From IMG/VR virus record IMGVR_UViG_3300027996_002186, positions 372,001 to 436,000 of that record: a DNA stretch of 64,000 nucleotides; one strand, 5' to 3'. Below, piece by piece: positions 2,466 through 63,804 of this stretch; position 1 is the stretch's first letter, and the number at the start of each line of letters is the position of its first letter. The DNA comes from a virus. Made by a program: the position numbers and the translations under genes. Below the pieces are notes generated by a model. It saw only the letters and a list, made by a program, of their open reading frames with translations, did no database searches and had not been told where the DNA came from.

Positions 2466-4091
2466 TTATTTAACTACTAAGTGTGGTGCTGACCAAATAG
2501 ATTCTGATTTAGCAAAATCAACTATTTTTGTTATATAATCATCTCTTATTTCTTGTGGTAGATTATATAACCAATCTATGAATACTATTGATTGTAGTCT
2601 TGAATTCTCCGCATTTGACTTTTCTCCATCACCAGATAAATCTTGATTGAATATACCGCTGAGGTAATCATTTTCAACCACAAACATCTCACCAACTAAA
2701 TATTCTCTTATTTCAGATTTATCCTTTTTCTTTCTTATAAACTCCTTGATTTGATACAAATTATCTGGCATTAAATGATTTATCATTGATCCAGCTTTAC
2801 CACTAACATACCCACCCTTACTCTTAAGCTCAAGTGATATGTTTGATGTTTGATTACTATCAAATGTTCTACAATCTATACCTGAACCATCTTTCCAATT
2901 ATTAGCAACATCGGCCTCGTTCTCAAATTTCCAGGAAAAGTCTATATTAGCTGTTTTTCTAGAAGGCTTTACCACTTTATCCAGGTTATCAGCTTTTAAC
3001 TTATTATCTATATCTTTATTACCAGAATTAACTATCATTAATTTTGGAGTATTTATCGTTTGCTTAAGTGATACTCCAACTAATCCTTTTCGATGAATAA
3101 CAGACTCACCTAAGAAATCATTAAGATCATCAATATTATCCATATCATAATATGAATTATAATTAGATAAAGATTCATTTCCCTTAAAAACTATCCAGAA
3201 ATCGCTTGGGTTCCATTTAGCCATATTTGAAAGCTCTGGTATATCATAAAAATTATAATCACCTAATAACTCACCAGCCTCGAGTATTATTCCTTTTTTA
3301 TTTTGTATTTCTTCTTTAAATATAAAATGAGCAAATTTATTAATAAGTAGATCTTTACTATTCTTCACTATATAAGAAATATTACTTATATCATCCTCAC
3401 TAAGGTATCCATCTTTAATTCTATTACCGCTTTTATCATATCCCAGTAGAAAATCACATTGATTTTCCATACCTTCCATGATTTTTTTACCTGTTGTAAA
3501 TATATCATATGAGTTATTAATATCATCCATAGATTTATTATTTGATATACTAGCAAATCTTATATCCTTTCTAGTCTCATACCTCATAAGTATTTTACCA
3601 TGATGTGTTTGTATGTTTAACTTAACACCAGCGTTTAACCAAGCTCTAATAGCTAATGTTATTAGAAAGGCAGTTTCTCTAAAATGGTTACCTCTTTTAG
3701 AAGGACCAACACGATCATATTGTCTAACCATATTGGATATTGATCCTCTCTTGGCTACAGCCCAGTCAATGTTAATATCATCAGAATCGGTATGATATAT
3801 CATTAAATCATCATTTGATTCAACTTCTAATTTTAATTTTAAGTCTGAGAAATTTATTTCAGTAACAGTTGAATTTCTTATCCAAATAACCTTTTCATCA
3901 TCACCTGGGATATCCCCCTTTGATAAATCTAATTTTATATCAAAATTATTAATGTTAGATGTTTCTATCTCATTTACTAATTTTTTCATCGCCACTGATT
4001 TCCCCTTTCTAGAAAGGCTATAAGGCATTTTTTTATCACCACTAAGAGTAGCTTCTTTAATAAACCTATTATACCTTAGTATTTTTTTCAT
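2466..4091 (-). CDS. Tagged large hypothetical protein (possible PD-(D/E)xK-like fold)
   Basis: 541 residues from the ATG at 4091. That start is chosen because it leaves the 10-mer TTAATATATA immediately upstream and makes the N-terminus MKKILRYNRFIKEA, the closest match in the window to the T4 capsid-targeting tag. A longer reading from 4112 would translate through the promoter box. Recognisable motifs: RVGPSKRGNHFRE at about 135, and WNPSDFWIVFKG ... KGLVGVSLK at about 295-345, where D and a later S-x-K could be a degenerate nuclease core. No family can be named securely. If the tag works, this is the largest candidate injected protein here apart from any outside the window. Confidence 0.75.
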   Translation of the reverse strand: MKKILRYNRFIKEATLSGDKKMPYSLSRKGKSVAMKKLVNEIETSNINNFDIKLDLSKGDIPGDDEKVIWIRNSTVTEINFSDLKLKLEVESNDDLMIYHTDSDDINIDWAVAKRGSISNMVRQYDRVGPSKRGNHFRETAFLITLAIRAWLNAGVKLNIQTHHGKILMRYETRKDIRFASISNNKSMDDINNSYDIFTTGKKIMEGMENQCDFLLGYDKSGNRIKDGYLSEDDISNISYIVKNSKDLLINKFAHFIFKEEIQNKKGIILEAGELLGDYNFYDIPELSNMAKWNPSDFWIVFKGNESLSNYNSYYDMDNIDDLNDFLGESVIHRKGLVGVSLKQTINTPKLMIVNSGNKDIDNKLKADNLDKVVKPSRKTANIDFSWKFENEADVANNWKDGSGIDCRTFDSNQTSNISLELKSKGGYVSGKAGSMINHLMPDNLYQIKEFIRKKKDKSEIREYLVGEMFVVENDYLSGIFNQDLSGDGEKSNAENSRLQSIVFIDWLYNLPQEIRDDYITKIVDFAKSESIWSAPHLVVK

Positions 4092-4096
4092 AACAT

Positions 4097-4106
4097 TATA
4101 TATTAA
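4097..4106 (-). promoter_or_regulatory. Candidate late promoter box TTAATATATA
   Basis: Exact 10-mer on the minus strand, 5 nt before the ATG at 4091; it decides the start of the tagged 541-residue gene. Confidence 0.45.
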
Positions 4107-4173
4107 TATCATGAAATCAGAATCATGTTATCTCACTCATTATTCAAAATGTATATTTCGAATATGTAATAAT

Positions 4174-5199
4174 TTAATTATTGTTATAAACCCTATTATA
4201 CTCTGTTCTATATTTATATGAAATCACTTGTATGGAATATCCTGTATTTGGTTCATATTTCAATTCTTTACCCAAAATATTATAGTACTTTATGGATATT
4301 GGACTTTCAGAATCTTTGTTTATTGATATTATATTAAAGTATTCGAAATCTCCATTATAATCTATTTGTTTTAATCGGTAATAAACTAAGTCTGTGGTTG
4401 TTTTATTATCATAATAATATGATAGTGTTTCACTAGAGTTACCGGCACCAGCAACCTGACCAACAAAATTCCATTGTTCTCCGTTAATAGATGAATAGAT
4501 TTCAAATCTATCATTGTTAGATTCAGATGCAGTTAACCATTTTAACTCATCAAGGCCGTTATTCTCGTTGTATTCACCAGTAAAAGATAATAATTCAATT
4601 GGTAGAGCAATAGAGCAAGTTGTTTCATAAACAAAGATATCATCAAAGTAATATTCTTCGGTATCAGCTTGATTACCTAATAATACTCTAATTTTCAATA
4701 TAGATCCTGTTCCAATATCTATACAATCTATTTGTGAATAACCATTAACAGCCCCACAGACTGCCATAAAGTTTATCCAAACACCGCCATCAATTTGATA
4801 TTCGGCATTTAGTAGGTCCTCACCAGAACCACAACTATTACACTCCATGTTACCCTCAGCTCTCATTGAGATGGATATAGACATAGTAGTATATCCTATT
4901 ATATTAATATCTTCTGATATCCAAATATTATCAGATTCACCTTGGCTATTAACACAACAAGTTAAACCCTCAATATCCTCACAACAAAATTCTTTATCAC
5001 CAAAGGTTGTTCTTGTTCCCCAATAATTATTACCAACTGTACCGGGAGCTCCATCAGCATCACAATTATTAGCAGATGTAGTCCACTTGGTAGTATTTTG
5101 TGTACCGTCTGTATATGATTCGAAATCTTCTGACCAAATAACTGTTTGTGAATTAAGAATAAATGGTAGTAATAAAACTAAAAATGTAAATATCTTCAT
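4174..5199 (-). CDS. Secreted protein resembling T9SS cargo, degenerate sorting domain
   Basis: 341 residues with a clear signal peptide (MKIFTFLVLLLPFILNSQT). Residues 20-195 form a cysteine-rich beta domain of the lectin/jelly-roll kind (CCEDIEGLTCC, CNSCGSG). LPIELLSFTG follows, the hallmark linker of Bacteroidetes T9SS cargo, and then a fibronectin-like module with WLTASESNNDRFEIYSS and YYRLKQIDYNGDFEYFN. The expected type A sorting domain is reduced to YYNILGKELK...GYSIQVIS and lacks the usual last strand, so export beyond the periplasm is uncertain. It resembles the gene at 29277 in the middle module. Such proteins are bacterial surface proteins; on a phage they may alter the host envelope. 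Confidence 0.75.
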   Translation of the reverse strand: MKIFTFLVLLLPFILNSQTVIWSEDFESYTDGTQNTTKWTTSANNCDADGAPGTVGNNYWGTRTTFGDKEFCCEDIEGLTCCVNSQGESDNIWISEDINIIGYTTMSISISMRAEGNMECNSCGSGEDLLNAEYQIDGGVWINFMAVCGAVNGYSQIDCIDIGTGSILKIRVLLGNQADTEEYYFDDIFVYETTCSIALPIELLSFTGEYNENNGLDELKWLTASESNNDRFEIYSSINGEQWNFVGQVAGAGNSSETLSYYYDNKTTTDLVYYRLKQIDYNGDFEYFNIISINKDSESPISIKYYNILGKELKYEPNTGYSIQVISYKYRTEYNRVYNNN

Positions 5200-5205
5200 A
5201 TAGAA

Positions 5206-5233: not shown

Positions 5234-7078
5234 TTATTTTAATAACTCTGTTTTTCTTAGATCAGAGTTTTTACCAAACCAAATATTAAGAGAGTCTTTT
5301 GAAACATCATCTTTGGTTATAAGTGTTAACCTAGGTCTGTTTATAATATCTTCATACTCATCATCAACTAGAGCTGCTAAACCTTTCTTATACTTAATAT
5401 CATATTTCTTTAAGTCTTTATTCTTCTCCCATTCATTATATTCACTTTGATTATAGAATAGAATTTTCTTTTCTTTCTTAGCTCTTGGTATAGCTACCAC
5501 GATTGGTGTTTCAACCTTATATAACATACGTCTTTCGAACATATCTGGCCAATACTTATAAAAGAAGTTTATCAATAATGCGGCAATTGCATTTCCATCA
5601 ACATCAGCATCAACATATAAAAGAACTCGGCCATACCTAAGTGATTTTAATTCAATATCATGGCCCAATTTCAACCCAATAGAGGCCATTAAGTTAACCG
5701 CCTCTGTATTCTGAACTAATTTCTGACTTGATATATCAGACACGTTTATAAACTTACCTTTCAATGCAAAGGCTCCCATTGATTGAGAATCTCTATACTT
5801 TCTAAAAGCACCAGCAGCAGAATCTCCCTCAAATAACCCTAGTGAATACTTCCATCTATCCTTACCCTTAGCATCAATAAGTTTTTCAACCTTTATCTTA
5901 GATAACTTTTTATTTAGATTTCTTTGTAATTTATTCTCATCTGCATTTTTCTTTTGTTCTATCCAATCTAATATAGAGTTAACTATTTCGGATTTCAATA
6001 TAGATTGAACCATCTTCTTACTAACTTCAAAGGAAGTTCCAAAATCTTTAATCTCAGTAATTAACTTTTCTTTCGTCTGTGATGAGAATGATGGGTTAAT
6101 AACAGTAGAGTCTAAGAATAAGAACATATGGTTCTTTAATTCTGACGGTTTAACATCAGTCTTATGTTTCTTCAAGAAATAGGCTCTAAGATCTAATATA
6201 ATTTGATTCATAATATAATCTACGTGCGTACCACCATCATAAGTTTCTGTTGAGTTAGCAAAACTAACTTGTTGGAATCCATTTTCTGATAAAGCAATAC
6301 CAACAGACCAACTATTACCCTTTTTAGTTTCAAAGAAAAAGTCATCAACATATAATTTTATATAATCTTCATATGATTTGAAATTAATAACTTTACCATT
6401 GAAATAGATTTTAATCTTAGTGTTACATGCGGCTAAATCATAAACTCTTTTTTCCAATAATTGATAGTGTGATTCATCTAAACCATCCATCGTGAATTTC
6501 TCAAAATCTGGATTGAATGATATTTTAGTATGACTCCTGGTAGCCTTTTTAATCTTAGGAGAAGTTCTTTCTCTCATATTGTTAGTAAATGTCTGACTAA
6601 ATTGATTTTTACCATCACAAGTCTCAATAGTGAACTCATTTGAGTATATGTTTGTTAGTGTAGATCCAACACCATTAGTACCAGCCCAAGATCTTTCTTC
6701 ATCATCATTGAAATTAGAACCAGCTTTAAGGTTTGAGAATATCATCTCCGGAATCCACTCTTTATGTTCTTTGTGTTTAACAACTGGTATACCACCATTA
6801 TCCCAAATAGATATTGAATTCTTATCCTTATCTATTGTTACTTTAATTATATTAAGTTTGGATCCTTTTCTTTTACTCTCATCAACTGAATTAGTAATTA
6901 TCTCATCAAATATTTTTAGAAATCCCGGATTGTATGTTATTTCTTTTTGAATTGCCTTCTCTCCTTCGATTAACCATTTGTTAGATGTGTGTGGTTTTAT
7001 AGAACCGATATACATTCCAGGTCTTAGTATAACGTGGTCTATATCATCTAACTTCTTGAATTTCTTATCTATCGACAT
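5234..7078 (-). CDS. 39: Type IIA DNA topoisomerase large subunit (ATPase + TOPRIM)
   Basis: 614 residues. GHKL ATPase motifs: E59 and N63 in FDEIITNSVDE, DNGGIP at 93-98, GTNGVGS at 133-139, and the QTK loop at 334-336. TOPRIM motifs: EGDSA at 417-421 and DADVDG at 490-495. This is the T4 gp39 (plus gp60) equivalent in a single chain, without the T4 gene split. With the medium subunit encoded at 8294 on the other strand it should form the strand-passing enzyme that relieves supercoils at phage replication forks. The two genes are separated by two tagged genes instead of forming an operon. Confidence 0.95.
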   Translation of the reverse strand: MSIDKKFKKLDDIDHVILRPGMYIGSIKPHTSNKWLIEGEKAIQKEITYNPGFLKIFDEIITNSVDESKRKGSKLNIIKVTIDKDKNSISIWDNGGIPVVKHKEHKEWIPEMIFSNLKAGSNFNDDEERSWAGTNGVGSTLTNIYSNEFTIETCDGKNQFSQTFTNNMRERTSPKIKKATRSHTKISFNPDFEKFTMDGLDESHYQLLEKRVYDLAACNTKIKIYFNGKVINFKSYEDYIKLYVDDFFFETKKGNSWSVGIALSENGFQQVSFANSTETYDGGTHVDYIMNQIILDLRAYFLKKHKTDVKPSELKNHMFLFLDSTVINPSFSSQTKEKLITEIKDFGTSFEVSKKMVQSILKSEIVNSILDWIEQKKNADENKLQRNLNKKLSKIKVEKLIDAKGKDRWKYSLGLFEGDSAAGAFRKYRDSQSMGAFALKGKFINVSDISSQKLVQNTEAVNLMASIGLKLGHDIELKSLRYGRVLLYVDADVDGNAIAALLINFFYKYWPDMFERRMLYKVETPIVVAIPRAKKEKKILFYNQSEYNEWEKNKDLKKYDIKYKKGLAALVDDEYEDIINRPRLTLITKDDVSKDSLNIWFGKNSDLRKTELLK

Positions 7079-7166: not shown

Positions 7167-7580
7167 TTACTCACCTTTGATGAAGCTTATTTGATACGAA
7201 GCTTTCCTGTATGTGAATTCAAATTTAATAGGATCCGGATTGCTATTATCGAAACAATTATTCACTTTGAATCCTCTTGAATTCATATATCCGGTTATAT
7301 CTTCTATATTAGAATCGACAAGATATTTTTCGTGGAAATCACCATCTTCAGTTTTATTAATATTTATGTATAACTCTGGTGTTTTTCTTGCTTTAGCCAT
7401 TGTCATTGGTGAGAAACTAGCAATTGTTTCATATCCAATATCATCTAGTTCTGATAATTTATCTTCAATGAATTCAAAACAATCATTCATATCAACAATT
7501 ACATCACCATATACATTATAAAGATTTTTAGGAACTTTATTAAATGATTCAAATATTTTATATGTGTTTATGTGTTTCAT
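7167..7580 (-). CDS. Tagged hypothetical protein
   Basis: 137 residues. The N-terminus MKHINTYKIFESFNK carries the shared tag. The rest is a mixed alpha/beta domain with no recognised motif. It ends 88 nt upstream of the topoisomerase gene and starts 10 nt after the stop of the next tagged gene, so the pair 8256-7167 is probably one transcript. Predicted by the tag to be an internal head protein; unproven. Confidence 0.7.
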   Translation of the reverse strand: MKHINTYKIFESFNKVPKNLYNVYGDVIVDMNDCFEFIEDKLSELDDIGYETIASFSPMTMAKARKTPELYININKTEDGDFHEKYLVDSNIEDITGYMNSRGFKVNNCFDNSNPDPIKFEFTYRKASYQISFIKGE

Positions 7581-7590: not shown

Positions 7591-8256
7591 TTAGATATTC
7601 ATCAATGGAATTTTAGGCTTGATTTCAAATCTTTCATTTAAATACATTTTCAATTCATTCTCGATATAATGTTCTGGAACCTCCATAGATGGATCCATAT
7701 GTTCCATTCTATCTGATAATTCTATTGAGAACTCGTGGAGTACAGTAGGTTTTATAGCTTGTACTAATCTATCAGAAACAACAAAAGCTCTAGTAAATCT
7801 ATCCTTTGGTGATATTTCACCTTCTGCCAATTTCATTGAACTCTTTATAACCTTTTTCAAAAAGGAATTGTAATTGTTACCTGGATCTTCTAAGATTGGT
7901 TTCATAATTTTATTAAATGCTCTAGTTGATCCGAATAAAAACCCTGCGATTGCTATTATTGGGAAGAAAGGAGCTAAAGCCATGGGTGTAATTCTATGCA
8001 CCATTTTAATAACACCAACTTTCATAGCTGATCTTTTCTTGGCTACTTGAGCATCTTTGAATAATGCATTCAACATACCAAATGTGAAAGATGTTCCATT
8101 CTCATTTAAATACTGACCAAGATTACCTCTATGAGCGTGATATAAATGTGTTTTTATATCTTTCTTAGTAACACCTAACCTTTTTAATTCGGCCTTAATG
8201 TTCTTATCATATTTTTCTTGAATTAAAAATTCATCATATTTCTTAATACTCTTCAT
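7591..8256 (-). CDS. Tagged membrane-associated hypothetical protein
   Basis: 221 residues from the ATG at 8256. A longer reading from 8400 would run back through the divergent topoisomerase gene, and only the 8256 start yields the tag MKSIKKYDEFLIQEK. A hydrophobic stretch at about 120-142 (ALAPFFPIIAIAGFLFG) can be one membrane span, flanked by basic residues. Proline and hydrophobic spacing there recall the LETM1-like core of the protein at 12806, but the match is too loose to assign. It shares a 37-nt divergent promoter region with the topoisomerase medium subunit gene. Confidence 0.7.
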   Translation of the reverse strand: MKSIKKYDEFLIQEKYDKNIKAELKRLGVTKKDIKTHLYHAHRGNLGQYLNENGTSFTFGMLNALFKDAQVAKKRSAMKVGVIKMVHRITPMALAPFFPIIAIAGFLFGSTRAFNKIMKPILEDPGNNYNSFLKKVIKSSMKLAEGEISPKDRFTRAFVVSDRLVQAIKPTVLHEFSIELSDRMEHMDPSMEVPEHYIENELKMYLNERFEIKPKIPLMNI

Positions 8257-8293: not shown

Positions 8294-9637
8294 ATGATGA
8301 CAGAAAAATCGATCTCAGAATTTTTATCTGATGAATACAAAGAGTTTGCGATGTACTCTATTGAGGGGAGGGCGATGCCTTCCGTCATTGATGGATTCAA
8401 ACCAACTCAACGAAAAGTAATACACATATCTAACCAAATATGGAAAACAGGAGGCGAGAAAACACTAAAAGTCTTTCAATTAGCTGGTAAAGTAGCATCT
8501 GATGCTTTTTATCATCATGGTAATACATCACTTGAGAATTCTATTGTAACGATGGCTCAAAAATTCAAGAACAACGCAGCTTTATTAGAAGAAGATGGTC
8601 AATATGGCTCACTTAGATCTCCTCAACCAGGAGCTCCTAGATACATTGGTACTAAATTAAACGAAAACTTTAGATTAATTTATAAAGATTTTGAACTTCT
8701 AAATTATAAAGAGGAAGAAGGAGAAACAATTGAACCAGAATTCTTTTTACCAATAATACCAACTGTTTTATTAAATGGATCATCAGGTATTGCTGTTGGA
8801 TTTGCATCAAACGTATTAAACAGAAACGTAGAACAACTAATAAACTCTTGTGTTAAGGTGTTAGATGGTAAGAAAATAAAGTCTATAAAACCTTCATACG
8901 CTGAATTTACTGGTGAGTTCATACAAGATGAAGAGAATAATAAGAGATGGATAATAAGAGGTGAATTCGAAAGAGTTAACACATCAACAGTAAGGATAAC
9001 TGAATTACCACCATCAATGACTTATGAGAAATATGAAGATCATTTAGATAAAATATCTGATAATAAAGACATTGTTTCTTATGATGATAATTGTAAAGAT
9101 AATATAGATTATACTATTAAATTCAACAGAAGTGTATTAGCCGATTTGGATGATACAAAACTAAGAAAGTTATTAAAATTAGAAGAATCATCTACTGAGA
9201 TATTCTCCACACTCGATGAGTTTGGTAAATTAAAAATATTTGAAACCTGTGAAGAGATAGTTGAATATTTTGTCAATTTCAGACTTACTTATTATCACAC
9301 CAGAAAAGAATTTCTACTAGAAAAGTTAAATAGAGAATTAAAAATACTTTCTAATAGAGGAAGGTTCATAAAAGCTATACTTGATGAAAAGTTAAAGATA
9401 AATAATGTTGCTAAATCCGAAATAATTTCACAAATTGTGGATATGGGGTTAGAACAAATTGATGATTCATATGATTACCTTTTAAGGATGCCTATATATT
9501 CACTAACAAAAGAATTATTTGAAAAATTAAAAATGGATTTCTCTGCTAAGAAAGAAGAGATTCAAATTTTAGAGAATACCGATCCAAAAGATATGTATCG
9601 ATTGGATTTGAGTGATCTAAAAAAGAAATTCAAATAA
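8294..9637 (+). CDS. 52: Type IIA DNA topoisomerase medium subunit (breakage-reunion)
   Basis: 447 residues, matching T4 gp52 in length. The winged-helix CAP domain has GFKPTQRKV near 34-42, GNTSLENSIVTMAQ at 76-89, and the catalytic tyrosine Y117 in PGAPRYIGTKL. NGSSGIAVGFA at about 155-165 is the conserved GyrA/gp52 motif, and the C-terminal third is the tower/coiled-coil. It lacks the GyrA beta-pinwheel, so it should relax DNA rather than introduce supercoils. Its partner is the large subunit on the opposite strand. Confidence 0.95.
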   Translation: MMTEKSISEFLSDEYKEFAMYSIEGRAMPSVIDGFKPTQRKVIHISNQIWKTGGEKTLKVFQLAGKVASDAFYHHGNTSLENSIVTMAQKFKNNAALLEEDGQYGSLRSPQPGAPRYIGTKLNENFRLIYKDFELLNYKEEEGETIEPEFFLPIIPTVLLNGSSGIAVGFASNVLNRNVEQLINSCVKVLDGKKIKSIKPSYAEFTGEFIQDEENNKRWIIRGEFERVNTSTVRITELPPSMTYEKYEDHLDKISDNKDIVSYDDNCKDNIDYTIKFNRSVLADLDDTKLRKLLKLEESSTEIFSTLDEFGKLKIFETCEEIVEYFVNFRLTYYHTRKEFLLEKLNRELKILSNRGRFIKAILDEKLKINNVAKSEIISQIVDMGLEQIDDSYDYLLRMPIYSLTKELFEKLKMDFSAKKEEIQILENTDPKDMYRLDLSDLKKKFK

Positions 9638-12805: not shown

Positions 12806-13210
12806 ATGAATCATTTAAAAAAATATGATGAATTTGTAAACGAGAATTTTTCAGATAGTATTAAGAAAGCTTATAATAGTACTAAACAGAAAGTAAAAGA
12901 CTTTAGTATTAAAGGATTATATAGAGATAGTGTTGATTTTACTAAGAGTTTTTGGGAAGCTACTAAACGTGAAGGTAAAGAAACTAGTCAAGCAATTGGT
13001 ATTTTAAGAAAAATGATTAAAGGACAAGAGGTTAGTGACCAAGAGAAATCATTCTTTAAAAAACAAGCTGGTGATGTTGCTAAGATATTCCCACTTATTG
13101 CAATACAAGGAATACCAGGTGGGTCGGTTGCTATAACTCCATTATTGAAAATTATCGGTAATAAATATAACTTTAATCCATTCCCATCCAAGACTGAGTT
13201 AGGTGAGTAA
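12806..13210 (+). CDS. Tagged protein with LETM1-like domain
   Basis: 134 residues. The tag is MNHLKKYDEFVNENF, with V-N-E at 11-13 (possible prohead-protease site). The C-terminal 65 residues (KGQEVSDQEKSFFKK, GDVAKIFPLIAIQGIPGG, ITPLLKII) match the pattern of the LETM1 core, a weakly membrane-inserting helix pair known from mitochondrial and Bacteroidetes proteins. Preceded by its own TTAATATATA box. If packaged, it could act on the host membrane on entry; that is inference. Confidence 0.72.
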   Translation: MNHLKKYDEFVNENFSDSIKKAYNSTKQKVKDFSIKGLYRDSVDFTKSFWEATKREGKETSQAIGILRKMIKGQEVSDQEKSFFKKQAGDVAKIFPLIAIQGIPGGSVAITPLLKIIGNKYNFNPFPSKTELGE

Positions 13211-14010: not shown

Positions 14011-14844
14011 TTATGGAACACCTCTTCTTCCCGCATGATTTCTTGGTACTGGTGTTGTTTTAATTCTTAATTCTTCTTCTTTTATTTCTATATCCCTAAG
14101 GGCATCTTTAATTTCTTCTTCTTTATACAAAAGTATATCTTCTCTATTCTTAATATCTTTTATATTAATTTCTAAATTCTTTTCTTTTTCTGTTACAATT
14201 TTCAAATCTTTATCAATTTTTGATTTTAACTCTATATACTTTCCATCAATGTCTTTTGATGATTCTAGTATAGTTCTATCAAGGTTTCTTTCCTTTTCGT
14301 TTATATCTTGTAGTTTATCTTGAACATCTAATTCTCTATCTTTTACTTCTTTATATTTATTTCTTAAATCATCTTCTTTTTTATCTAATGATTTGATATC
14401 CTCTTTATATTCATTCTCTCTCTTTTCAACTCTATTGAGTCTAATATCAATTTCTTCTTCTTTACTCTCAATCACTTTTTCTCTACTATTTAATTCAGAT
14501 TCTTTATTTTCTATTTCCTTTAAACGATATTCATCGACTTGTATACCATCATCTTTACTCATAGATGATAATATCATATCCTCCATGAATGGAATCAATT
14601 TATTAGCCAAGGTCTTTGGTGATGGTAACTTATTTATTTTTATAAGTGAGTGTAGTTCTGCCTTCCAATCGACCAATTCAAAAAAGTCAGGGTTGTTGTC
14701 GATTATATCTCTATCTATCTTTACATCTTCTCCTTTTACGTTATAAACGTATTCGTTTAATATAGTACCTAACTTCAATATAAAAATTTTCTTATCAGGG
14801 CTCAAGTATTGAAACTCTTTTATACATTTATGTTTGATTTTCAT
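14011..14844 (-). CDS. Long coiled-coil protein
   Basis: 277 residues. The N-terminal 100 residues are globular (a small beta module beginning MKIKHKCIKEFQYLSPDKK). Residues 105-262 form an almost continuous E/K/D/I/L heptad coiled coil with repeats such as KEEEI and KEEEL. The last 15 residues are a Pro/Arg tail (TTPVPRNHAGRRG). It could be a virion fibre, scaffold or cytoskeletal-type protein; nothing identifies which. Confidence 0.7.
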   Translation of the reverse strand: MKIKHKCIKEFQYLSPDKKIFILKLGTILNEYVYNVKGEDVKIDRDIIDNNPDFFELVDWKAELHSLIKINKLPSPKTLANKLIPFMEDMILSSMSKDDGIQVDEYRLKEIENKESELNSREKVIESKEEEIDIRLNRVEKRENEYKEDIKSLDKKEDDLRNKYKEVKDRELDVQDKLQDINEKERNLDRTILESSKDIDGKYIELKSKIDKDLKIVTEKEKNLEINIKDIKNREDILLYKEEEIKDALRDIEIKEEELRIKTTPVPRNHAGRRGVP

Positions 14845-23235: not shown

Positions 23236-24063
23236 ATGGAATGGATTAAAAGATTTGAAGAATTAAACTCAAATACATATAGATCAGCTGGAGATCATCT
23301 TATAAATATCAATAAGATATCAAGAGGTCAAAAACTAATTGATTATGCTGATGAAAAAGATTTCGGATTCTATAATGTTTGGTGGGGAAACACAAATAGT
23401 GCCATTAGTAAAAAACCTTTAGTGTTTACTAATCCAAAGTCTGATTTTATTTACAACGTTTTTAAGATAACTCGAGGAGGACCGAAAGCTAATGACATTA
23501 AACATAAACTTTCCAATAAGGGTCCAGAAGAATTAGTTAAAGATTGGTATGATGGAGTTTCTTCTTTATCATTCACCATAAATTTCACATTCAAAACCGC
23601 AGGTGAATCTTTAAAAGTACATGATAGATTAAAAAGATGGAAAGTTCCATTATTTTCTATAAACTTTCAAATAGCTGAGTGGGTAGAAAAAGAAGATTTT
23701 GAAGGTGTAGATGACGATCCGATAGTAAAAAATGCTCTTGATTTATATCAACACATGGATGGTTATCATTATCCACAGATTTCTATACAAAGACCTTTAG
23801 ATGATCACTACTTTGGTATATTTAGTGATAGAAAATCAGCCAATAAATTTAAAAGAGATGTACTTGGTCCTGCTATAGAAGAACATCATGATAAAATATT
23901 TGAGATATTCTCTATCATAGGAGCTTCTGCAAAAGATTTTGAAAAAGCAATTAAAGCATTTAAAAATATCAGAACCAACTATCTATATGATGAATCAATA
24001 GGAAGATCAAACCCAGAGCAATTATGGTATAATAATTATGGTTGGGATAATGAGATGCATTGA
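23236..24063 (+). CDS. Tagged tandem paralogue 1 of 4
   Basis: 275 residues with the tag MEWIKRFEELNSN, then TYRSAGDHLININKISRGQK, the family signature T-Y-x-x-A-...-[GR]-x-x-x-L. A second shared element is SDRKSANKFKRDVLGPAI at about 197-214 (F-x-D-R-x-S-A-x-[KR]-F-[KR] in the family). It is the most divergent of four consecutive genes. The tag suggests an internal head protein; the body matches nothing I recognise. Confidence 0.75.
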   Translation: MEWIKRFEELNSNTYRSAGDHLININKISRGQKLIDYADEKDFGFYNVWWGNTNSAISKKPLVFTNPKSDFIYNVFKITRGGPKANDIKHKLSNKGPEELVKDWYDGVSSLSFTINFTFKTAGESLKVHDRLKRWKVPLFSINFQIAEWVEKEDFEGVDDDPIVKNALDLYQHMDGYHYPQISIQRPLDDHYFGIFSDRKSANKFKRDVLGPAIEEHHDKIFEIFSIIGASAKDFEKAIKAFKNIRTNYLYDESIGRSNPEQLWYNNYGWDNEMH

Positions 24064-24090
24064 TATGGTAATAAATAAAGATATAAAGAT

Positions 24091-38304: not shown

Positions 38305-38913
38305 CTAAATAATATGTTTATGAAGAACACTACTTTCTGTCCATATTTGTAAATTACTTTCTCCTTTTTTTGATAAATCTAAAAGCTCATCATACGTTAA
38401 ATTACCAACAACACCACCTTTTATTAATAGGTTCTGATAATTAGAAATTTCTTTTAAAAAATCAGATTTATTTTCCTCCATGTCAGGAAAATCCCAATAA
38501 CCACTCCAAAGTGGGTTATCTATATCCAAAAATTCCTCTATTGTTCTTTCTACAAACCACCAAGTAGATCCCAACCCACCATTTCTTAATTCCCTACTAA
38601 ATGAGAATTTAGCATCCTTATTTGGAATTGGTTTGTATGGATTTCCATACCAAGATAAGTATTTTGTTTGGCTTTCTGTTGGATTTAAATAAAAATGAAT
38701 AGATTTTGTAGGATTTTGTAAACCAAGGTTTTTATAATTATTAAGAAAAGAAACATAGTCTTCATCCATAGATTGACCTGTTGATACATTCCTTAATTTA
38801 GGATCATCAATATATTCTTCTTTATCAACTTTAACTCCCCTGAGTAATGAATTTCCGAAAATATCCGGGAATTCATCTTCATAGAATTTTTCAAATAATC
38901 TTATATGTTTCAT
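38305..38913 (-). CDS. Tagged hypothetical protein
   Basis: 202 residues from the ATG at 38913 (a TTG just upstream at 38916 is rejected). Tag MKHIRLFEKFYEDEF. The middle (YVSFLNNYKNLGLQNPTKSI, GGLGSTWWFVERTIEEF) has regularly spaced aromatics. No family recognised. A TTAATATATA box precedes it; divergent from the cyclase gene. Confidence 0.72.
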   Translation of the reverse strand: MKHIRLFEKFYEDEFPDIFGNSLLRGVKVDKEEYIDDPKLRNVSTGQSMDEDYVSFLNNYKNLGLQNPTKSIHFYLNPTESQTKYLSWYGNPYKPIPNKDAKFSFSRELRNGGLGSTWWFVERTIEEFLDIDNPLWSGYWDFPDMEENKSDFLKEISNYQNLLIKGGVVGNLTYDELLDLSKKGESNLQIWTESSVLHKHII

Positions 38914-45516: not shown

Positions 45517-45942
45517 TCACCAAAATTGCCGTCTGTTCTGACTATCTAATGTGGTATCAACATCTGAAATATATTGCATATGGCACACAAAGTATAACAT
45601 TGGTCCTAATCCGAAATTGAATTCAAATTCAAACCCAATTTTATATCCTATGGATTCTAACCTTTGTTTAATTTCTTCGATTGTTTTTAGAAAATTCATT
45701 TGATTTGTTATCTCACTTATATTTGTTATTCCATAAGCACTACCAACATCAATCGGATCAAGTATCGATTCTTCTAAATTTTTTCTAAATTCAAAGAAAT
45801 AAGATCCATGTGAAGCAGTATCAAAAAATTTTATATCGAATCCATCATCAATAATTTCAATGAATAAATCATTAACATCATCATTACTTAGATAATTGTG
45901 GCTCGACTCAAATACTTTGAATTTCTTAACCTTCTTCCTCAC
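45517..45942 (-). CDS. Tagged hypothetical protein
   Basis: 141 residues, tag variant MRKKVKKFKVFESSHN. Aromatic-rich body (GSYFFEFRKNLEESILD, IGFEFEFNFGLGPMLYFVCH). It starts 17 nt inside the end of the upstream tagged gene, so the three genes 48114-45517 form one operon. Confidence 0.68.
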   Translation of the reverse strand: MRKKVKKFKVFESSHNYLSNDDVNDLFIEIIDDGFDIKFFDTASHGSYFFEFRKNLEESILDPIDVGSAYGITNISEITNQMNFLKTIEEIKQRLESIGYKIGFEFEFNFGLGPMLYFVCHMQYISDVDTTLDSQNRRQFW

Positions 45943-47038
45943 CTGTTATTATCTTTTTGATTTCTTCTACTTGGTCTTTTTTAGAATCATCTTGTAACAT
46001 ATCAGCTAAATCAGCGACAGTTTTCATTTTATCAGCATCATCCTTTATATTACCCAAAGATTCTGCTGCTTTTTTAGCTTCTTCACTTTGGTCAACCTCA
46101 ATTTTCATTAAGATATCTTCCTTTGTCTTTTTAAAATCAGCATCTTCGAAAGATATATCATCACCAGAAACATCTTTAACCTTTTTAACACCAATCATTT
46201 CCTTATCTTGTAAGTCTTGCATTGGTCCTTCATCAGTTTTTTTCTTATCATCATCACTTAACTTTTCCCACTCATCCGCACTGAATTTATCTCTTTTATA
46301 AACAATTGTATCTCCAGATTTAAGTTCACCTGGTCCTTCTGATGATGCTTCTATACCTTTAGAATCCAAGTATTCTTCAACTTTTGAAGAATCAACTTCC
46401 TCTACGTATTTTAATAATGTCGGTGTTAGTGTTTTATTAACCCATCCAAGAGCTGCTTCTTTTCTTTTCACACCATCTTCTCCCGCGCTTTGTAAAACCT
46501 TCTTAAAATCTGGTAAATGTGTTGTGTCAGCCATATCCATCTTCTTAGAAGCCGGGTCAATCTTAGCTTCTCCAATTTTCAAGTCTGGTCCCCCAGCATA
46601 TTTAAATTGTTTTATTGCTCTGTTTCTAGCTGTTTCAAAATAATATTTAATAGTTTCTAATGGTGCTAAATTATCACCATAAACCTTTTTAAGACTTTCG
46701 TATAATGGTTCAAGTCCTTGTGTACCAAGAGCTCCTGTTTCAGGATCTAGAATATTATCAACCAAGGTTAAGCAATCTTCATTGTTTGCTTCTGGTTTCT
46801 TTTCAAACTCTTCAATAACAGATTTGAATAAATAAGTACCATCTGATGGGTTAAATATCTTAGTTTCTATCCAAGTGTCTATATCTTCTGTTTTTGGGTT
46901 ATCTCCTCCCATTTTTTCTAGATCTTGTACAGCCTTACCCCACATTTTCTTAAAAAAATCAATTAAACCACCAAACAATTCCTCATTAACGGGAGCATTT
47001 CTAAACGATTCAAATGTTTTTATGTAATTCTTTTTCAT
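45926..47038 (-). CDS. Tagged charged protein, internal-head/scaffold-like (paralogue of 47050 gene)
   Basis: 370 residues. Tag MKKNYIKTFESFRN, then APVNEELFGG with V-N-E as a possible prohead-protease site, then FFKKMWGKA. The chain is rich in K, E and D. A module at about 240-310 (VYKRDKFSADEWEKLSDDDK, then VKKVKDVSGDDISFED) is repeated in the neighbouring gene product. Composition and tag resemble T4 internal and core proteins, so this is a good candidate for an abundant internal head or scaffold protein. Confidence 0.75.
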   Translation of the reverse strand: MKKNYIKTFESFRNAPVNEELFGGLIDFFKKMWGKAVQDLEKMGGDNPKTEDIDTWIETKIFNPSDGTYLFKSVIEEFEKKPEANNEDCLTLVDNILDPETGALGTQGLEPLYESLKKVYGDNLAPLETIKYYFETARNRAIKQFKYAGGPDLKIGEAKIDPASKKMDMADTTHLPDFKKVLQSAGEDGVKRKEAALGWVNKTLTPTLLKYVEEVDSSKVEEYLDSKGIEASSEGPGELKSGDTIVYKRDKFSADEWEKLSDDDKKKTDEGPMQDLQDKEMIGVKKVKDVSGDDISFEDADFKKTKEDILMKIEVDQSEEAKKAAESLGNIKDDADKMKTVADLADMLQDDSKKDQVEEIKKIITGEEEG

Positions 47039-47049
47039 ATTATTTATAT

Positions 47050-48114
47050 TTATTTTTTAGAATCTTCCGATGCTCTATCAGCTTTTGCTTTTACACCAGC
47101 AGCTTTAGCGTCTTCTTGCTCCTTATCCATTAACTTATTAGCCTTATCCTCAGTTGTTTCTTCTGTGGATTCATCAGTTTCCTCTTTAGGTTCTTCCTTA
47201 ACCTTAACTTTAAGTAAAATATCAGTAAGAGGTTTTGTTATATCTTTATCATCTTTATTCTTGAATGTGAAATTATCACCATCAATTTTAGTAATTGATT
47301 TACTACCAACTTGAACATCATCCCACTTATCCTCATCTGTTTTTTCTTCATCTGAAAGTTTATTCCATTCCTCTTCTTTGAAATCCTTTCTTTTATAAAT
47401 AACAACATCATCTTCTTTATACTCAACTGGTTTTCCAGTTTTTTCAAATTTAACCCAGTCTTCTCTTTGTTTCTCTCCAAGTGTTTTAGCTTCTATTTGT
47501 TTAGCTGCGGCTAGTTTCTTAGATTCTGGATCCTCTGATTTTTCTAAAGATGATATTTCAGCATTCAATAAATCCAATGTGAATTGATCCTTTTTAATAT
47601 TAATTATTATTTGTAATTGTGGGTTCTTAGAACCACCACCCTGTTTTACTAATACAGCATCCATCTCTTTAATAGCCATACCTTTCATTTGTACAATTAT
47701 CTTTTTTAAGATATCTTGCTTTTGTTTTAATATCTTAGGATCTACAGCTGGTTTCTTTTCGGCCTCTCCTGGTTTTTTATCAGTAGTTTCCTCTGCTCCT
47801 TCTTCTGCTACTGCTCCTTCTTCTCCTTCTTCTGCTACTGCTTCTTCTGCTTCGAATACTTTAGACTCTTTGACAGAAACTTTACCTAATTCTAAGTTTA
47901 AACCAGTTTGTTTAACAATAGCATCATTTATCAACTTCAGATATTTTTTATAAATAACCTCAATCTCATTACCACCCTGCGTCTTTCTTATATTTTCTCC
48001 AGCTTTTTTAAACATTTTTCCGAAGAATTTACCAATAGCACCAAGAAATTCTTCATTGACTGGTTTATTATTATTATTATTCTTGAAAGATTCAAAGGTT
48101 CTTACATATTTCAT
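47050..48114 (-). CDS. Tagged charged protein, internal-head/scaffold-like (paralogue of 45926 gene)
   Basis: 354 residues. Tag MKYVRTFESFKNN, then KPVNEEFLGAIGKFFGKMF, matching the VNEE-F-G/A-FFxKM stretch of its neighbour. Residues 85-130 are low-complexity Glu/Ala (repeats of VAEEG). The shared module VIYKRKDFKEEEWNKLSDEE ... KSITKIDGDNFTFKN lies near 235-285. C-terminal E/T/K-rich tail. Gene duplication is clear at protein level. First gene of its operon, with a one-mismatch late box about 26 nt upstream. Confidence 0.75.
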   Translation of the reverse strand: MKYVRTFESFKNNNNNKPVNEEFLGAIGKFFGKMFKKAGENIRKTQGGNEIEVIYKKYLKLINDAIVKQTGLNLELGKVSVKESKVFEAEEAVAEEGEEGAVAEEGAEETTDKKPGEAEKKPAVDPKILKQKQDILKKIIVQMKGMAIKEMDAVLVKQGGGSKNPQLQIIINIKKDQFTLDLLNAEISSLEKSEDPESKKLAAAKQIEAKTLGEKQREDWVKFEKTGKPVEYKEDDVVIYKRKDFKEEEWNKLSDEEKTDEDKWDDVQVGSKSITKIDGDNFTFKNKDDKDITKPLTDILLKVKVKEEPKEETDESTEETTEDKANKLMDKEQEDAKAAGVKAKADRASEDSKK

Positions 48115-54240: not shown

Positions 54241-54672
54241 TTATTTATAAACCTTAAATGGAAGACTTTTAGATTTATAACCTTTAAAATCCTCTCTAAA
54301 CTCTTCAAGTCTAGGTTCTATCTCGTCAGATTTTATTATCCAAAATTGAGCACCAGCTGCTATTGCTTTCGCTTTTTCGGATTCCTCGTTGGATGAGGAT
54401 ATTATTCCGACAACCACCTCATTTCCGTATTCAAAATTTATCTTTCTAATCAATTCTATACCATCGAAAGAACTACCTAATATATTTAAATCTATAAAGG
54501 CACAACTAGGTTTTCCTTTACCACTCTCAAACCATTCTTTAAACATATTACTAGCATCATCTGAACTAGACACACTTGTAAGGCTTAATGTTATATCTAA
54601 AAGACTGCAAGCGTCTTCGAAGACTAGGTGGAATAAGTCTTCATCATCTACTAATAATATTGAATCAATCAT
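54241..54672 (-). CDS. Response regulator receiver protein paired with histidine kinase
   Basis: 143 residues. Receiver domain with the acidic pair D9/D10 in LLVDDED, phosphoacceptor D61 in AFIDLNILGSSFDGIELIRK and the later VGIISSSNEESEKA and WIIKSD segments (switch Ser and conserved Lys). A 20-residue basic tail follows and there is no output domain. Its ATG overlaps the kinase stop (ATGA), so the two are translated together. This is Bacteroidetes single-domain type. Confidence 0.87.
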   Translation of the reverse strand: MIDSILLVDDEDLFHLVFEDACSLLDITLSLTSVSSSDDASNMFKEWFESGKGKPSCAFIDLNILGSSFDGIELIRKINFEYGNEVVVGIISSSNEESEKAKAIAAGAQFWIIKSDEIEPRLEEFREDFKGYKSKSLPFKVYK

Positions 54673-55925
54673 AATGGTATTTCTATTTTTATTTTAGTTC
54701 CTATTTTTATTTTTTCACTACTAACACCAAAACCATGTTCTTTCATTATCGCTAAACATATGTTTAACCCTAATCCCGTTCCAGACTCTTGTTGTTTATT
54801 TTTTCTTATATATGGTTTAGATAAGTCTTCAAATTCCTTTTGCGACATCCCTCTTCCATTGTCTTCTATTATTAGTAAATTTCTATACGAACCTCTATCT
54901 TTATTGTATTTCGCTTCATCCATATATATCTTAACTAACTTTGAATCACTGTCATTATATTTTAACCCATTTCTTATTAGGTTATCTACAGCAGTACAAA
55001 ATAAAGATTCATTAACGTTACATTCTATTAAATTTTCTATAATAACTTGTTTTGAGTATGCGGTAGTACTTAGGTGTGATTTTAATATATCCTTTAAATT
55101 AAAAATTTCTCTTTCTAATGTAGCATCTTTTTTAACAAGATTTGTAAATTCTTTAACACCAGTATATACTTTTTGTGAGTGTTTTAACCCTTCCTCTATT
55201 AACTTTAAAGAGGATTCTAGTTTTAATTTTTTAATAATTTCGGGAGACATCTTTCTTTTTAAAGAACGTAAACCTCTTGGCATATAGGTGTTTATCCCAC
55301 TATGCATATCGTGTCTTAATATTTTTGCAGCATGTTCTAGGTAGGAGTTGGTTTTTTCTATCTCAGCTTTTTGTTCTACCATTTCTGTTATATTGTTTAC
55401 TACTTTTAGTATCTTATAACATTTACCATTACCATCTAGAATAGGGTTGTAATTACCATTGATGTGAACCTCATCACCTTCACTATCTATTCTCACAAAT
55501 TCACCACTTTTAAATTCACCATCTCTTAAATCTTTCCAAAACTTTTTATATTTAAGTGTGTTTTTATATTCATGTTTAACGAACATACTATGATGTTTAC
55601 CTTTAACCTCTTCTATTGTATAACCAAATATGTCTAGGAAATTTTGGTTTGCTTTAATTACGTGTCCATCAGGACAAAATTCTATTACAGAATTAGATTT
55701 GTTAATAGCGTCTAACATGTTGGAATTGAAATTGGAGTTATTACCTATATTTTCTTTTAGTATAATACAAAAAGGTGGTAAAAATAATAACAAACTAATA
55801 AACTCATACCAATCTGTATATACCGAAGAATTAATAAATCCAGATAACAACATAACTTTAACTACAAAAAAAGTAATTATAATAAGGAAAGATGTGTAAA
55901 TTGATATGTGGAAACTTTTGTTCAT
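54669..55925 (-). CDS. Membrane sensor histidine kinase with PAS domain
   Basis: 418 residues. Two membrane spans (about 8-28 and 42-57) with a very short periplasmic loop, so sensing is probably in the membrane or cytoplasm. PAS domain about 70-185 (GYTIEEVKGKHHSMF). Phosphoacceptor H205 in LRHDMHSG. ATPase boxes: N319 in DNLIRNGLKYN, EDNGRGM at 354-360, GTGLGL at 382-387. All catalytic residues are present, so it should be active. An intact kinase/regulator pair is rare in phage genomes. It may report host physiology or rewire host signalling. Confidence 0.92.
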   Translation of the reverse strand: MNKSFHISIYTSFLIIITFFVVKVMLLSGFINSSVYTDWYEFISLLLFLPPFCIILKENIGNNSNFNSNMLDAINKSNSVIEFCPDGHVIKANQNFLDIFGYTIEEVKGKHHSMFVKHEYKNTLKYKKFWKDLRDGEFKSGEFVRIDSEGDEVHINGNYNPILDGNGKCYKILKVVNNITEMVEQKAEIEKTNSYLEHAAKILRHDMHSGINTYMPRGLRSLKRKMSPEIIKKLKLESSLKLIEEGLKHSQKVYTGVKEFTNLVKKDATLEREIFNLKDILKSHLSTTAYSKQVIIENLIECNVNESLFCTAVDNLIRNGLKYNDSDSKLVKIYMDEAKYNKDRGSYRNLLIIEDNGRGMSQKEFEDLSKPYIRKNKQQESGTGLGLNICLAIMKEHGFGVSSEKIKIGTKIKIEIPL

Positions 55926-55998: not shown

Positions 55999-56277
55999 TC
56001 ACATTTGGTCAAGATTATCATCGGTATATTCACCCGGATAGTCGTCTTCGTCCTCACCAAGTATAGTATTGATTACTTCTCTAGTATATTTATCTGTCAG
56101 AAATGAGACAAAATTATCTAAGGTTGTATGACAAGATGAGTGTACATCATTTTCTTTATGAAAATCATCTAAGTCTGTGAAAAAATCTAAGGTTTTCCAT
56201 GGTCCTTCTTCCTCTTCTTGCATCTCTAAAATTCGATTGACTTTAGTATTTTCATTAAACCTATTTATATGTTTCAT
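55999..56277 (-). CDS. Tagged small acidic protein
   Basis: 92 residues, tag MKHINRFNENTKVNR. Very acidic thereafter (MQEEEEGP, GEDEDDYPGEYTDD). The upstream gene on this strand ends 12 nt before its ATG. No family recognised. Confidence 0.68.
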   Translation of the reverse strand: MKHINRFNENTKVNRILEMQEEEEGPWKTLDFFTDLDDFHKENDVHSSCHTTLDNFVSFLTDKYTREVINTILGEDEDDYPGEYTDDNLDQM

Positions 56278-60624: not shown

Positions 60625-60626
60625 TT

Positions 60627-61928: not shown

Positions 61929-61939
61929 TTCTAATTATA

Positions 61940-62749: not shown

Positions 62750-62801
62750 TTCTTATATATAAAAACACCCAGTACCTCTTTTACCTAAAATTATAACATT
62801 T

Positions 62802-63185
62802 TTAATTTGGTATGAATTGAAGGCTTATTGATTGTAGGATCCATTCTGGGAATTCTTCAATCCTCTTGATATTTATAAATCTAGCACTGCCATTAGATAA
62901 TACAATGTGTATATTTTTAATCTTACAATCCTCTGATATTATAATATCGTTAATTCGTTTAAGATATTCATTGACATCATTCAAACTAAATAAATACTTA
63001 TCTGGATAAACTCCTATTTGGTTGGTTGATTTATCAATATCTATTGTTATTCTTTCTAATGAATCGGATCTCTTTGTAACACTAGTTTTGAAATTTATAT
63101 CATCTAATTCAAGTAATACATCTCTTATATTATTCATCAGAGAATCTTCGTCATTAAATGACTCAAACATCTTTAGATAATTCAT
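62802..63185 (-). CDS. Tagged hypothetical protein
   Basis: 127 residues, tag MNYLKMFESFNDED. Alpha/beta body (ERITIDIDKSTNQIGVYPDK, IKNIHIVLSNGSARFINIK). The start shares one base with the stop of the upstream tagged gene, so translation is coupled. No family recognised. Confidence 0.7.
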   Translation of the reverse strand: MNYLKMFESFNDEDSLMNNIRDVLLELDDINFKTSVTKRSDSLERITIDIDKSTNQIGVYPDKYLFSLNDVNEYLKRINDIIISEDCKIKNIHIVLSNGSARFINIKRIEEFPEWILQSISLQFIPN

Positions 63186-63448
63186 TATAATGGTTTATAA
63201 TTTGGGATAGCTCCTTTGTAATTCTTATTACCACTCTTTAGTTGTTCTCTTTCTGCTTCAGATGCAGCTCCATATTCTGGATCTTTCTTTTCTTTATCTT
63301 TACAATCCATACAGATTATATCTTCATTGAACATACTCATTGTGGTCATATTATTAGTTGATTCACCACATCTATCACAATTATCTCTTCTCATGTCGAA
63401 GGAACCATGTCGTGCTGAATAATCTTCAAATGTTTTTAAGTTTTTCAT
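63185..63448 (-). CDS. Tagged small zinc-finger-like protein
   Basis: 87 residues, tag MKNLKTFEDYSARHG. CDRC and CMDC pairs 20 residues apart form a four-cysteine zinc site. A basic/acidic tail follows. A packaged zinc-binding protein could contact nucleic acid. It overlaps the upstream gene by 4 nt. Confidence 0.7.
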   Translation of the reverse strand: MKNLKTFEDYSARHGSFDMRRDNCDRCGESTNNMTTMSMFNEDIICMDCKDKEKKDPEYGAASEAEREQLKSGNKNYKGAIPNYKPL

Positions 63449-63804
63449 TCACCTAATTTAGTTTTTAATTCTTCTATGAATGGTTGAAAATTATGTTTAC
63501 CATAATCATCTTTAAGTACTGTTGCAACAGCATCTGCGAAATCTTTATATGACATACTATCATCAATTTGATTGATTGATTTACTTATATCACTTGATAA
63601 TAAATCTGATTCATTTGATTCATTGAATCTTTTAAATTTTTTAATTTCATTCACATCATCACTGACTGTTAATTTTTTAACAACCTTTAAGAGAAAATCT
63701 ACATCTTCTATAGCAGCACTTGGATTATCATAGTAATAATCATCACCCCTTTCTTGTAAATGGGTAAATATATATTCTCTTTCCCAATCAGTTAGTTTAT
63801 CCAT
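63445..63804 (-). CDS. Hypothetical protein with an internal tag-like segment
   Basis: 119 residues. N-terminal 50 residues are helical (DWEREYIFTHLQERGDDYYY). Residues 51-65 read VNEIKKFKRFNESNE, a good copy of the tag, and are encoded from an in-frame GTG. So either a second start gives a 69-residue tagged protein, or two genes have fused. Overlaps by 4 nt downstream and 8 nt upstream. Confidence 0.65.
   Translation of the reverse strand: MDKLTDWEREYIFTHLQERGDDYYYDNPSAAIEDVDFLLKVVKKLTVSDDVNEIKKFKRFNESNESDLLSSDISKSINQIDDSMSYKDFADAVATVLKDDYGKHNFQPFIEELKTKLGE

Follow-up and report, generated by a model that had tools for sequence, protein, structure and literature searches.

Why do some 23 proteins encoded within 64 kb of one virus genome begin with the same short N-terminal sequence, when most of their bodies bear no resemblance to each other? 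The question arose from a sequence-only reading of a stretch of 64,000 nucleotides presented as part of IMG/VR virus record IMGVR_UViG_3300027996_002186. This whole stretch, hereafter the window, corresponds to bases 56099-120098, minus strand, of a 312,709-base IMG/VR virus record. The reading likened the shared N-terminus, here called the tag, to the capsid-targeting sequence (CTS) of the phage T4 internal proteins and proposed that a large and varied set of proteins is packaged for injection. Our comparisons support it: the common N-terminus is very probably a T4-type CTS whose cargo would be packaged, cut and injected, these three steps being carried over from T4.

Occurrence of the tag in the window

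All 23 proteins named in that reading are open frames, and 22 of their N-termini score at least 5 bits against a profile hidden Markov model of the tag, which was trained on 243 N-termini from 98 IMG/VR loci, T4 not being part of the training set. Fifteen reach at least 10 bits. The 98 training loci gave no megablast match to the examined sequence of this record. One N-terminus, that of 37940 (genes are named here by their start position), falls under the 5-bit threshold at 2.9 bits, while 25736 stands just at it. Shuffling of the same start candidates gave expectations of 2.4 at 5 bits or more, 0.45 at 8 or more and 0.1 at 10 or more. Five genes (4091, 8256, 38913, 38962 and 61039) have an in-frame start inside the longest open reading frame (ORF); 8256, at 14.3 bits, is placed among these internal starts because its longest ORF begins earlier. 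The genes are listed below with the tag, a slash marking its end, and the profile score; LR745206 is the nearest relative.

2466-4091, minus strand: tagged protein of 541 residues, MKKILRYNRFIKE/A, 5.6 bits; the longer ORF matches phrog_1462 (annotated as unknown function) at 2.8e-14
7167-7580, minus strand: tagged protein, MKHINTYKIFE/S, 15.9 bits
7591-8256, minus strand: tagged protein, MKSIKKYDEFLIQE/K, 14.3 bits
10711-11178, minus strand: tagged protein, MKYIKLFEDF, 24.4 bits
12806-13210, plus strand: tagged protein, MNHLKKYDEFVNE/N, 24.6 bits
22841-23095, minus strand: tagged protein, MKWIKLFEDF, 16.2 bits
23236-24063, plus strand: tandem-family member 1, MEWIKRFEEL, 7.1 bits
24091-24834, plus strand: tandem-family member 2, MKYLKRFNEEL, 11.0 bits
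24834-25736, plus strand: tandem-family member 3, MKYLKRFNEEL, 12.2 bits
25736-26524, plus strand: tandem-family member 4, MRYLRKYNEEL, 5.0 bits
26540-27742, plus strand: protein like CCA-adding tRNA nucleotidyltransferases, MIIKKYKKFLE/S, 5.7 bits
37308-37940, minus strand: weakest candidate, MIQGWSKFNE/N, 2.9 bits, under threshold
38305-38913, minus strand: tagged protein, MKHIRLFEKFYE/D, 20.5 bits
38962-39648, plus strand: nucleotide cyclase-domain protein, MEHLDKYKSFSINE/ADE, 8.2 bits
39650-40378, minus strand: tagged protein, MKYLNKYNKFSLNE/S, 16.2 bits; LR745206 orthologue starts MKYLHKYNKY
45517-45942, minus strand: tagged protein with a GTG start, MRKKVKKFKVFE/S, 6.3 bits; LR745206 orthologue starts MVVKQLKNFKLFES
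45926-47038, minus strand: tagged, charged protein, MKKNYIKTFESFRNAPVNE/E, 16.3 bits; possible core or filler
47050-48114, minus strand: tagged, charged protein, MKYVRTFESFKNNNNNKPVNE/E, 20.1 bits; possible core or filler
55999-56277, minus strand: tagged protein, MKHINRFNE/N, 13.6 bits
60627-61055, plus strand: tagged protein, MKHIKKFNE/E, 14.1 bits
61039-61407, plus strand: tagged protein, MPNTNKYIKSFILFE/S, 8.5 bits
62802-63185, minus strand: tagged protein, MNYLKMFE/S, 17.1 bits
63185-63448, minus strand: tagged protein, MKNLKTFEDY, 18.5 bits; no hydrophobic-x-E in residues 6-24

When every non-overlapping ORF of the window is counted, 22 of 94 score at least 5 bits and 14 of 94 at least 10 bits, compared with 20 (1.5%) and 4 of the 1309 ORFs in a random viral control of 120 loci retrieved with an arbitrary 14-base pattern (Fisher p of about 2e-16 and 3e-14, respectively). 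Gene 8256 is not counted within these 22, and 14011-14844 (5.6 bits), which is absent from the list above and is probably a false match, is. The density extends past the window: over 92.7 kb elsewhere in the record, 23 of 119 ORFs reach 5 bits. A strict nucleotide pattern for the tag matches at 20 places in the 312,709 bases, and its reversed form has no match. By extrapolation, about one-fifth of the genes would be tagged, or roughly 90 in this record.

Anatomy of the tag

The consensus of 154 pattern-selected ORFs is M-K-H-[IL]-K-[LT]-[FY]-E-[QDES]-F-[IVL]-N-E followed by [ASKG], as in MKHIKLFEQFINEA, and conservation ends past the glutamate plus one further, mostly small, residue. Among 125 N-termini of the same loci that were picked by their first seven residues, with full-pattern matches taken out, F10 is present in 97 and E13 in 86, and 78 have [ILVMF]xE at the tag end versus 3% in bodies. 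The tag is amphipathic, with its hydrophobic residues on one helix face (mean z of 1.25 in this genome and 1.80 in the viral loci, bodies being near 0).

Tag ends are more variable in this genome than in the family consensus. The [ILV]-N-E motif that had been reported after many of the window's tags is indeed present but in a narrower set, within residues 6-22 of five of the 23 proteins (0.6 expected). The broader [ILVM]-x-E occurs in 15 of the 23 versus 5.9 expected from bodies, and hydrophobic-x-E of any kind in 22 versus 8.9.

Relation to the T4 internal proteins

Applied to 244 T4 ORFs, the T4-free profile ranks ipIII first, ipII fourth and ipI fifth, and the chance of all three internal proteins standing in the top five is 4e-6. 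According to the available text of PMC9026906, packaging of IPIII needs no more than the first ten residues, with residues 4 and 7 involved in targeting and 8 and 10 in processing, and L/I-x-E is where the gp21 protease cuts. The tag consensus keeps the T4 spacing aromatic-x-x-Phe-[I/L/V]-x-Glu, with F7, F10, I11 and E13 corresponding to T4 residues 4, 7, 8 and 10; this agreement is that of the family consensus, and the tags of this genome follow it less strictly.

A single 21-residue environmental tag was also searched against 50,697 phage records (E up to 10) and matched 15. In eight of these, from six phages (Salmonella S16, Melville, STML-198, CGG4-1, AKM_NP4 and Yersinia P8), the matched place is annotated as an internal protein or Ip4; six have other or hypothetical names only, and one is the unannotated LR756500. 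The matches are individually weak because their E-values lie between 0.8 and 9. Internal proteins at or beside them begin MKTYEDFINE/A, MKTYEEFINE/S or MKTYQEFINE/A.

Protease and capsid genes in tag-bearing records

Matches to Peptidase S77, the gp21-type protease family, were found at E<=1e-3 in 24 of the 38 records searched (37 tag-bearing records and this one) and in 21 of the 26 that reach 100 kb (25 and this one), counts that are not independent because three records are near-identical in appearance. They are mostly located inside frames of 600-830 residues, and the equivalent protein of phage PTm1 is annotated as scaffolding protein and protease. A gp23-type capsid protein is encoded by 25 of the 37 records besides this one. 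LR745206 has an S77 match at E 1.1e-4, below the family cut-off, and a capsid gene as well. The proteases with readable starts carry no tag at their N-terminus.

In nine long protease proteins, which were chosen by a motif filter and are all homologous, the portion past residue 220 (the presumed scaffold part) contains 57 occurrences of [ILVM][NTSA]E[SAGN] versus a shuffle mean of 9.6 (maximum 22, n=100), a density of 15.5 per 1000 residues versus 2.1 in other ORFs. Capsid N-termini also contain sites like the tag end, FHSINE/NAYA in LR745206 and HSLNE/SAG elsewhere, at which a cut is predicted.

If the tag acts as in T4, tagged proteins would bind the scaffold core during prohead building, and the S77 protease would cut past the last residue of the tag, the glutamate of hydrophobic-x-E, after which A, S or G is often found. 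The mature cargo would remain in the head with the DNA and enter the host at infection. One portable tag would in this way pre-load a large mixed cargo of RNA-repair enzymes and probable counter-defence and signalling enzymes.

Distribution among phages

When a 20-kb piece was searched against the phage collection, LR745206 (634,780 bases) alone matched, with 79% identity over 37%. Its capsid protein is closest to the counterparts in LR756501-LR756504 (records of 636-735 kb), with more distant matches in LR756500, Lak and cultured Bacteroidota jumbo phages. The clade holding the largest genomes of PMC7162821 is named Mahaphage in the accessible part of that paper, with Bacteroidetes hosts predicted. 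From LR745206 and the capsid protein matches, we infer that the window belongs to this clade, and the 312,709-base record, which is half the size of its relatives, is probably a fragment.

The full 13-residue degenerate DNA pattern was found in at least 120 IMG/VR contig stretches, with ten matches packed in one 14.8-kb locus, and the same pattern with permuted codons gave zero IMG/VR matches. In whole records, the shorter strict pattern occurs 53 times in LR745206, 62 in LR756502, 31 in LR756504 and 14 in LR756500, next to the 20 of this record. It is found twice in pT24, once each in PTm1, MaF61 and MA9V-2, and not in PAU or T4. Reversed controls gave 0 except for 1 each in LR756502 and LR756501. 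By profile (at least 5 bits, in the stretches examined), the tagged ORFs are 12 of 109 in LR745206, 5 of 27 in LR756502, 1 of 22 in LR756504 and 4 of 23 in LR756501; the same count for T4 is 9 of 264. The tag is very uneven among related huge phages, though widespread, and this record is among the densest compared. Other ORFs of LR756501 (L212) read MENLNDYKQFNENI or ...FREFLNEA, and this phage perhaps has another version of the tag.

A parallel version is found in phage PAU, where MKT[IL]xxL[YF]E starts 14 genes on one strand (control 0). The set includes genes annotated as scaffolding and internal capsid proteins, beside the protease and capsid genes of the head module. Elsewhere this pattern gave 1 match in LR745206 and 0 in G000. 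Phage MA9V-2 encodes an 82-residue protein (MKTFTYFINEAK...) between the genes annotated as capsid assembly protein and prohead protease. No proteomic basis for the PAU and MA9V-2 annotations was found.

Cargo and portability of the tag

The CCA-adding enzyme at 26540-27742 matches PF01743 at 1.7e-30, the domain starting from residue 41. Its homologues at six viral loci have four distinct N-termini (MKIKKYKQFLES, MKLKKYEQFLES, MKIKDYQGFLEE and a weaker MMRKVDFIKKVFNLNES), and that of LR745206 reads MILKKYKMFLES; in the 23 further records listed, besides the two Mahaphage-type ones, the alignment begins only at residue 39-40. The cyclase at 38962-39648 (PF00211, 5.3e-19) contains FSDVVGSS, IGDAF and NTASR, which we take to be its catalytic motifs. 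Its orthologues begin MQHLDKYKYFQINE/ADE and MKHINNFRLFE/ADE, with tags of different lengths that all converge on E/ADE.

Outside the window, the same genome encodes an enzyme of the T4 RNA ligase 1 type (PF09511, 2.7e-21), the alignment of which to T4 RnlA starts at residue 27-29, opposite residue 7-9 of T4; the tag-sized extra portion (MKKLSKYLEFINESS...) is lacking in the T4 ligase. It also encodes a 2H phosphoesterase-exonuclease fusion (MLKKYKEFIKES...) with matches to PF13563 (7.8e-8) and PF00929 (3.8e-6) and to Acb1 (9.2e-6, just under the Acb1 cut-off).

Pfam was run on 134 tagged proteins (131 of 150 listed cluster representatives, 203 having passed the filters, and three of this genome) and gave 46 families; the 25 listed, each found in one member, include Tad3, ART-PolyVal, NUDIX, lysozyme and GNAT. 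At least one protein in this set, that of L211 (MIVKNIKIKNF...), probably has no true tag. PADLOC was uninformative on the 134 representatives, giving 29 families that among the 25 listed include many SMC- or ATPase-like ones and a weak Pycsar cyclase match.

The 58 tag-bearing records contain five occurrences of the Thoeris inhibitor Tad3, four tagged at 23.8-30.4 bits and one untagged. Acb1-family domains are found at 17 places in 16 of these records: 11 are tagged at 10 bits or more, two score 6.7-7.7, three score below 2 and one near a contig end is unscored. Because the records were selected for having tags, the Tad3 and Acb1 counts show portability and give no rate for all phages. ART-PolyVal, present in only 1 of 59 records, was rejected as general cargo. 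The protein L026:14117-14671 (phrog_858), first read as Dps-like, was dropped because T4 rI.-1 has the same product name and itself starts MKFSDF, so that no clean tagged-versus-untagged pair is obtained. The starts of rI.-1 (MKFSDFS) and of T4 57B (MMEFKDFS), which is presumably Acb1, are slightly like that of ipI (MKTFKEF); 57B scores 0.9 bits at rank 75, so its likeness is probably due to chance.

Three larger untagged proteins contain matches to tagged ones in their interior. Residues 170-280 of L126:1858-2700 (MPSTSKAQQQLMGM...) match a whole tagged protein, tag included, and L085:144-1010 and L058:709-1830 correspond to the bulk of another or to its first 96 residues. These three are possible polyproteins cut by the same protease.

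Evidence against the capsid-targeting reading, and alternatives

Several observations weigh against a CTS. Searches of the full 312,709-base record found no gp21-type protease by PF03420, nothing with the LR745206 protease as query, and no convincing capsid gene; three Gp23 matches (PF07068) were put down to chance, being short, widely spaced and divided between the two strands. No virion proteomics for any tagged phage was found in the literature, the virion evidence in the accessible portion of the MA9V-1 paper being a gel. In the T4 ranking, positions 2 and 3 are taken by nrdC.4 and soc, further gp21 substrates stand low (gp22 19th, gp24 51st, gp23 122nd; gp21 itself is 158th), and Alt, gp67 and gp68 are unranked, as they were not seen under annotated coordinates. 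Within the window, [ILVM]-x-E is limited to the 15 tags given above, the tandem family ends its tags in F-N-E, Y-N-E or F-E-E, and a site of this kind is absent from 63448. In the nine protease fusions, the first 200 residues (the protease part) are also raised in cut-site motifs, at 8.9 per 1000 residues. Only 3 of the 80 listed random contigs exceed 100 kb, a number that allows no baseline for co-occurrence of the protease with the tag. Among the relatives, the strict pattern matches LR756501 (735 kb) once, as often as the reversed control does, and Lak-A1 twice, and in the head-region stretches examined 0 of 14 ORFs of LR756500 and 0 of 21 of Lak-A1 reach 5 bits.

One alternative is compatible with a CTS. 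The packaged cargo might mostly form the structural core of a huge head or fill its space, rather than act as injected effectors; we regard this as possible but rather unlikely. The charged, scaffold-like proteins at 45926 and 47050 would fit it, as would the lack of a convincing Pfam family for most cargo bodies of the window. It is opposed by the enzymes and inhibitors among the cargo (CCA enzyme, cyclase, RNA ligase, 2H phosphoesterase-exonuclease, Tad3 and ART) and by T4 itself, whose Ip1-3 are described in the available text of PMC12373910 as injected inhibitors of different type IV restriction enzymes.

A docking peptide that acts inside the infected cell, at a replication compartment, membrane or complex and unrelated to packaging, is improbable. 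In its favour, neither virion data nor, in this record, a protease was found in our searches, and a good cut site is absent from some tags. Yet the profile retrieves the virion internal proteins of T4, conservation stops at E/A or E/S as at a cut site, S77 proteases and gp23-type capsid proteins are found in most of the long and of the other records, respectively (21 of 26 and 25 of 37), and the PAU version is carried by head-module genes.

Paralogy, in which the tagged genes belong to one family with diverged bodies, is very improbable. The sequence-only reading had the bodies unrelated outside the tandem family; this holds for 17 of the 23, which have no mutual BLASTP match at E<=0.01, but the 47038/48114 pair is related as well. 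Apart from that pair, the only BLASTP-related bodies are 24091/24834/25736, which 23236 joins by a profile built with 23236 itself, so that four genes form one family and two more a pair. Against a common origin of the rest, the tagged proteins of at least 8 bits fall into 43 BLASTP clusters for 45 proteins in this genome and 278 for 446 in all sets. The identified bodies come from unrelated families, and in orthologues the junction with the tag falls at a domain edge.

A nucleic-acid element at the gene start, such as a translation or regulatory signal, is hardly credible: the position at the start codon and the lower entropy of Lys and Leu codons in the tag than in bodies would suit it, but third codon positions are the most variable in the tag and synonymous entropy for Phe, Asn, His, Tyr, Glu and Gln in the viral loci is about that of bodies or higher. 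Synonymous choice is about as free as in bodies, with exceptions mainly at Lys and Leu and, in this genome, also at Ile, His and Phe, and selection on the tag acts mainly on the protein. A T4-type CTS is the best explanation offered here, the roles of most cargo proteins and their part in counter-defence being putative.

Other features of the window

Tandem-family member 2 was modelled with AlphaFold2 at a mean pLDDT (predicted local distance difference test) of 74, tag residues 2-7 being below 50, and the model had no fold match in the PDB at E<=0.001. For member 3, no relatives were found in viral contigs. Most members within 23236-26524 and the homologues in L004, L029, L210 and L367 have a helix after the tag that reads TYxxAADKLxKxGHxxRxxxL. 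The adjoining related pair at 45926-48114 has, past VNE/E, a stretch resembling FLGAIGKFFGKMF and a tail rich in charge; the two may belong to the prohead core and not be effectors. The C-terminal stretches of 12806-13210 and 7591-8256 (IPGGSVAITPLLKIIGN... and FFPIIAIAGFLFGS...) recall, in our estimation, LETM1-like domains, and Pfam gave no such match.

By sequence reading, 5234-7078 and 8294-9637, which flank tagged genes 7580 and 8256, resemble two type II topoisomerase subunits, and 30711-31085, 54241-54672 and 54669-55925 resemble response regulators and a histidine kinase.

Relation to known systems and significance

The system appears to be of a known kind, the T4 CTS, expanded from three internal proteins to tens per genome. 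The two are alike in a short N-terminal tag on unrelated bodies, in the spacing aromatic-x-x-F-I-x-E/A, in cross-detection by profile, and in the S77 protease and gp23 capsid found in most long tag-bearing records. They differ in that the tag here is about three N-terminal residues longer, is carried by tens of proteins per genome where T4 has three, and has among its cargo RNA-repair enzymes and a cyclase as well as proteins of the Acb1-like and Tad3 kinds; the protease of tag-bearing records sits on a much longer protein. The accessible text of PMC12373910 gives three internal proteins with such a leader for T4 and many more, at least 10, for related phages. The ejection proteins of phiKZ and SPN3US, as presented in the available parts of PMC5694885 and PMC9026906, are similar in having N-terminal propeptides cut after x-x-E that were proposed to be CTS-like. 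Several of those exceed 100 residues, one having 20, with sites A-x-E or S/A/G/T-x-E, while the tag here has 8-20 residues and a hydrophobic residue at P3. The head-module proteins of PAU likewise share one short tag over 14 genes, with a different consensus. No report of the tag in huge phages was found among open-licence PMC papers, and scale, clade and cargo are new as far as this literature search shows.

A wider proposal, to which we give slightly more credence than doubt, is that huge phages of the Mahaphage type load up to one-fifth of their products, around a hundred proteins per genome, into the head in advance by means of a single portable capsid address. The injected kit would block or repair host defences (tRNA and RNA repair, Thoeris and cyclic-nucleotide signalling) ahead of all phage gene expression, and the tag would be a handle for finding unknown anti-defence proteins. 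In the accessible part of a 2026 review (PMC13282480), Tad1 is named as the sole anti-defence protein so far described from jumbo phages.

Should the tag function as its T4 counterpart does, about 13 N-terminal residues would tell which uncharacterised huge-phage proteins travel in the virion, and the question of what huge phages inject, and why, would become testable from sequence. It would also yield a list of likely counter-defence proteins, including the tagged Tad3 and Acb1-like enzymes. The RNA ligase and CCA enzyme suggest that a packaging tag can convert ordinary intracellular phage enzymes into pre-delivered ones, and each particle may carry a large protein kit that is ready at infection.

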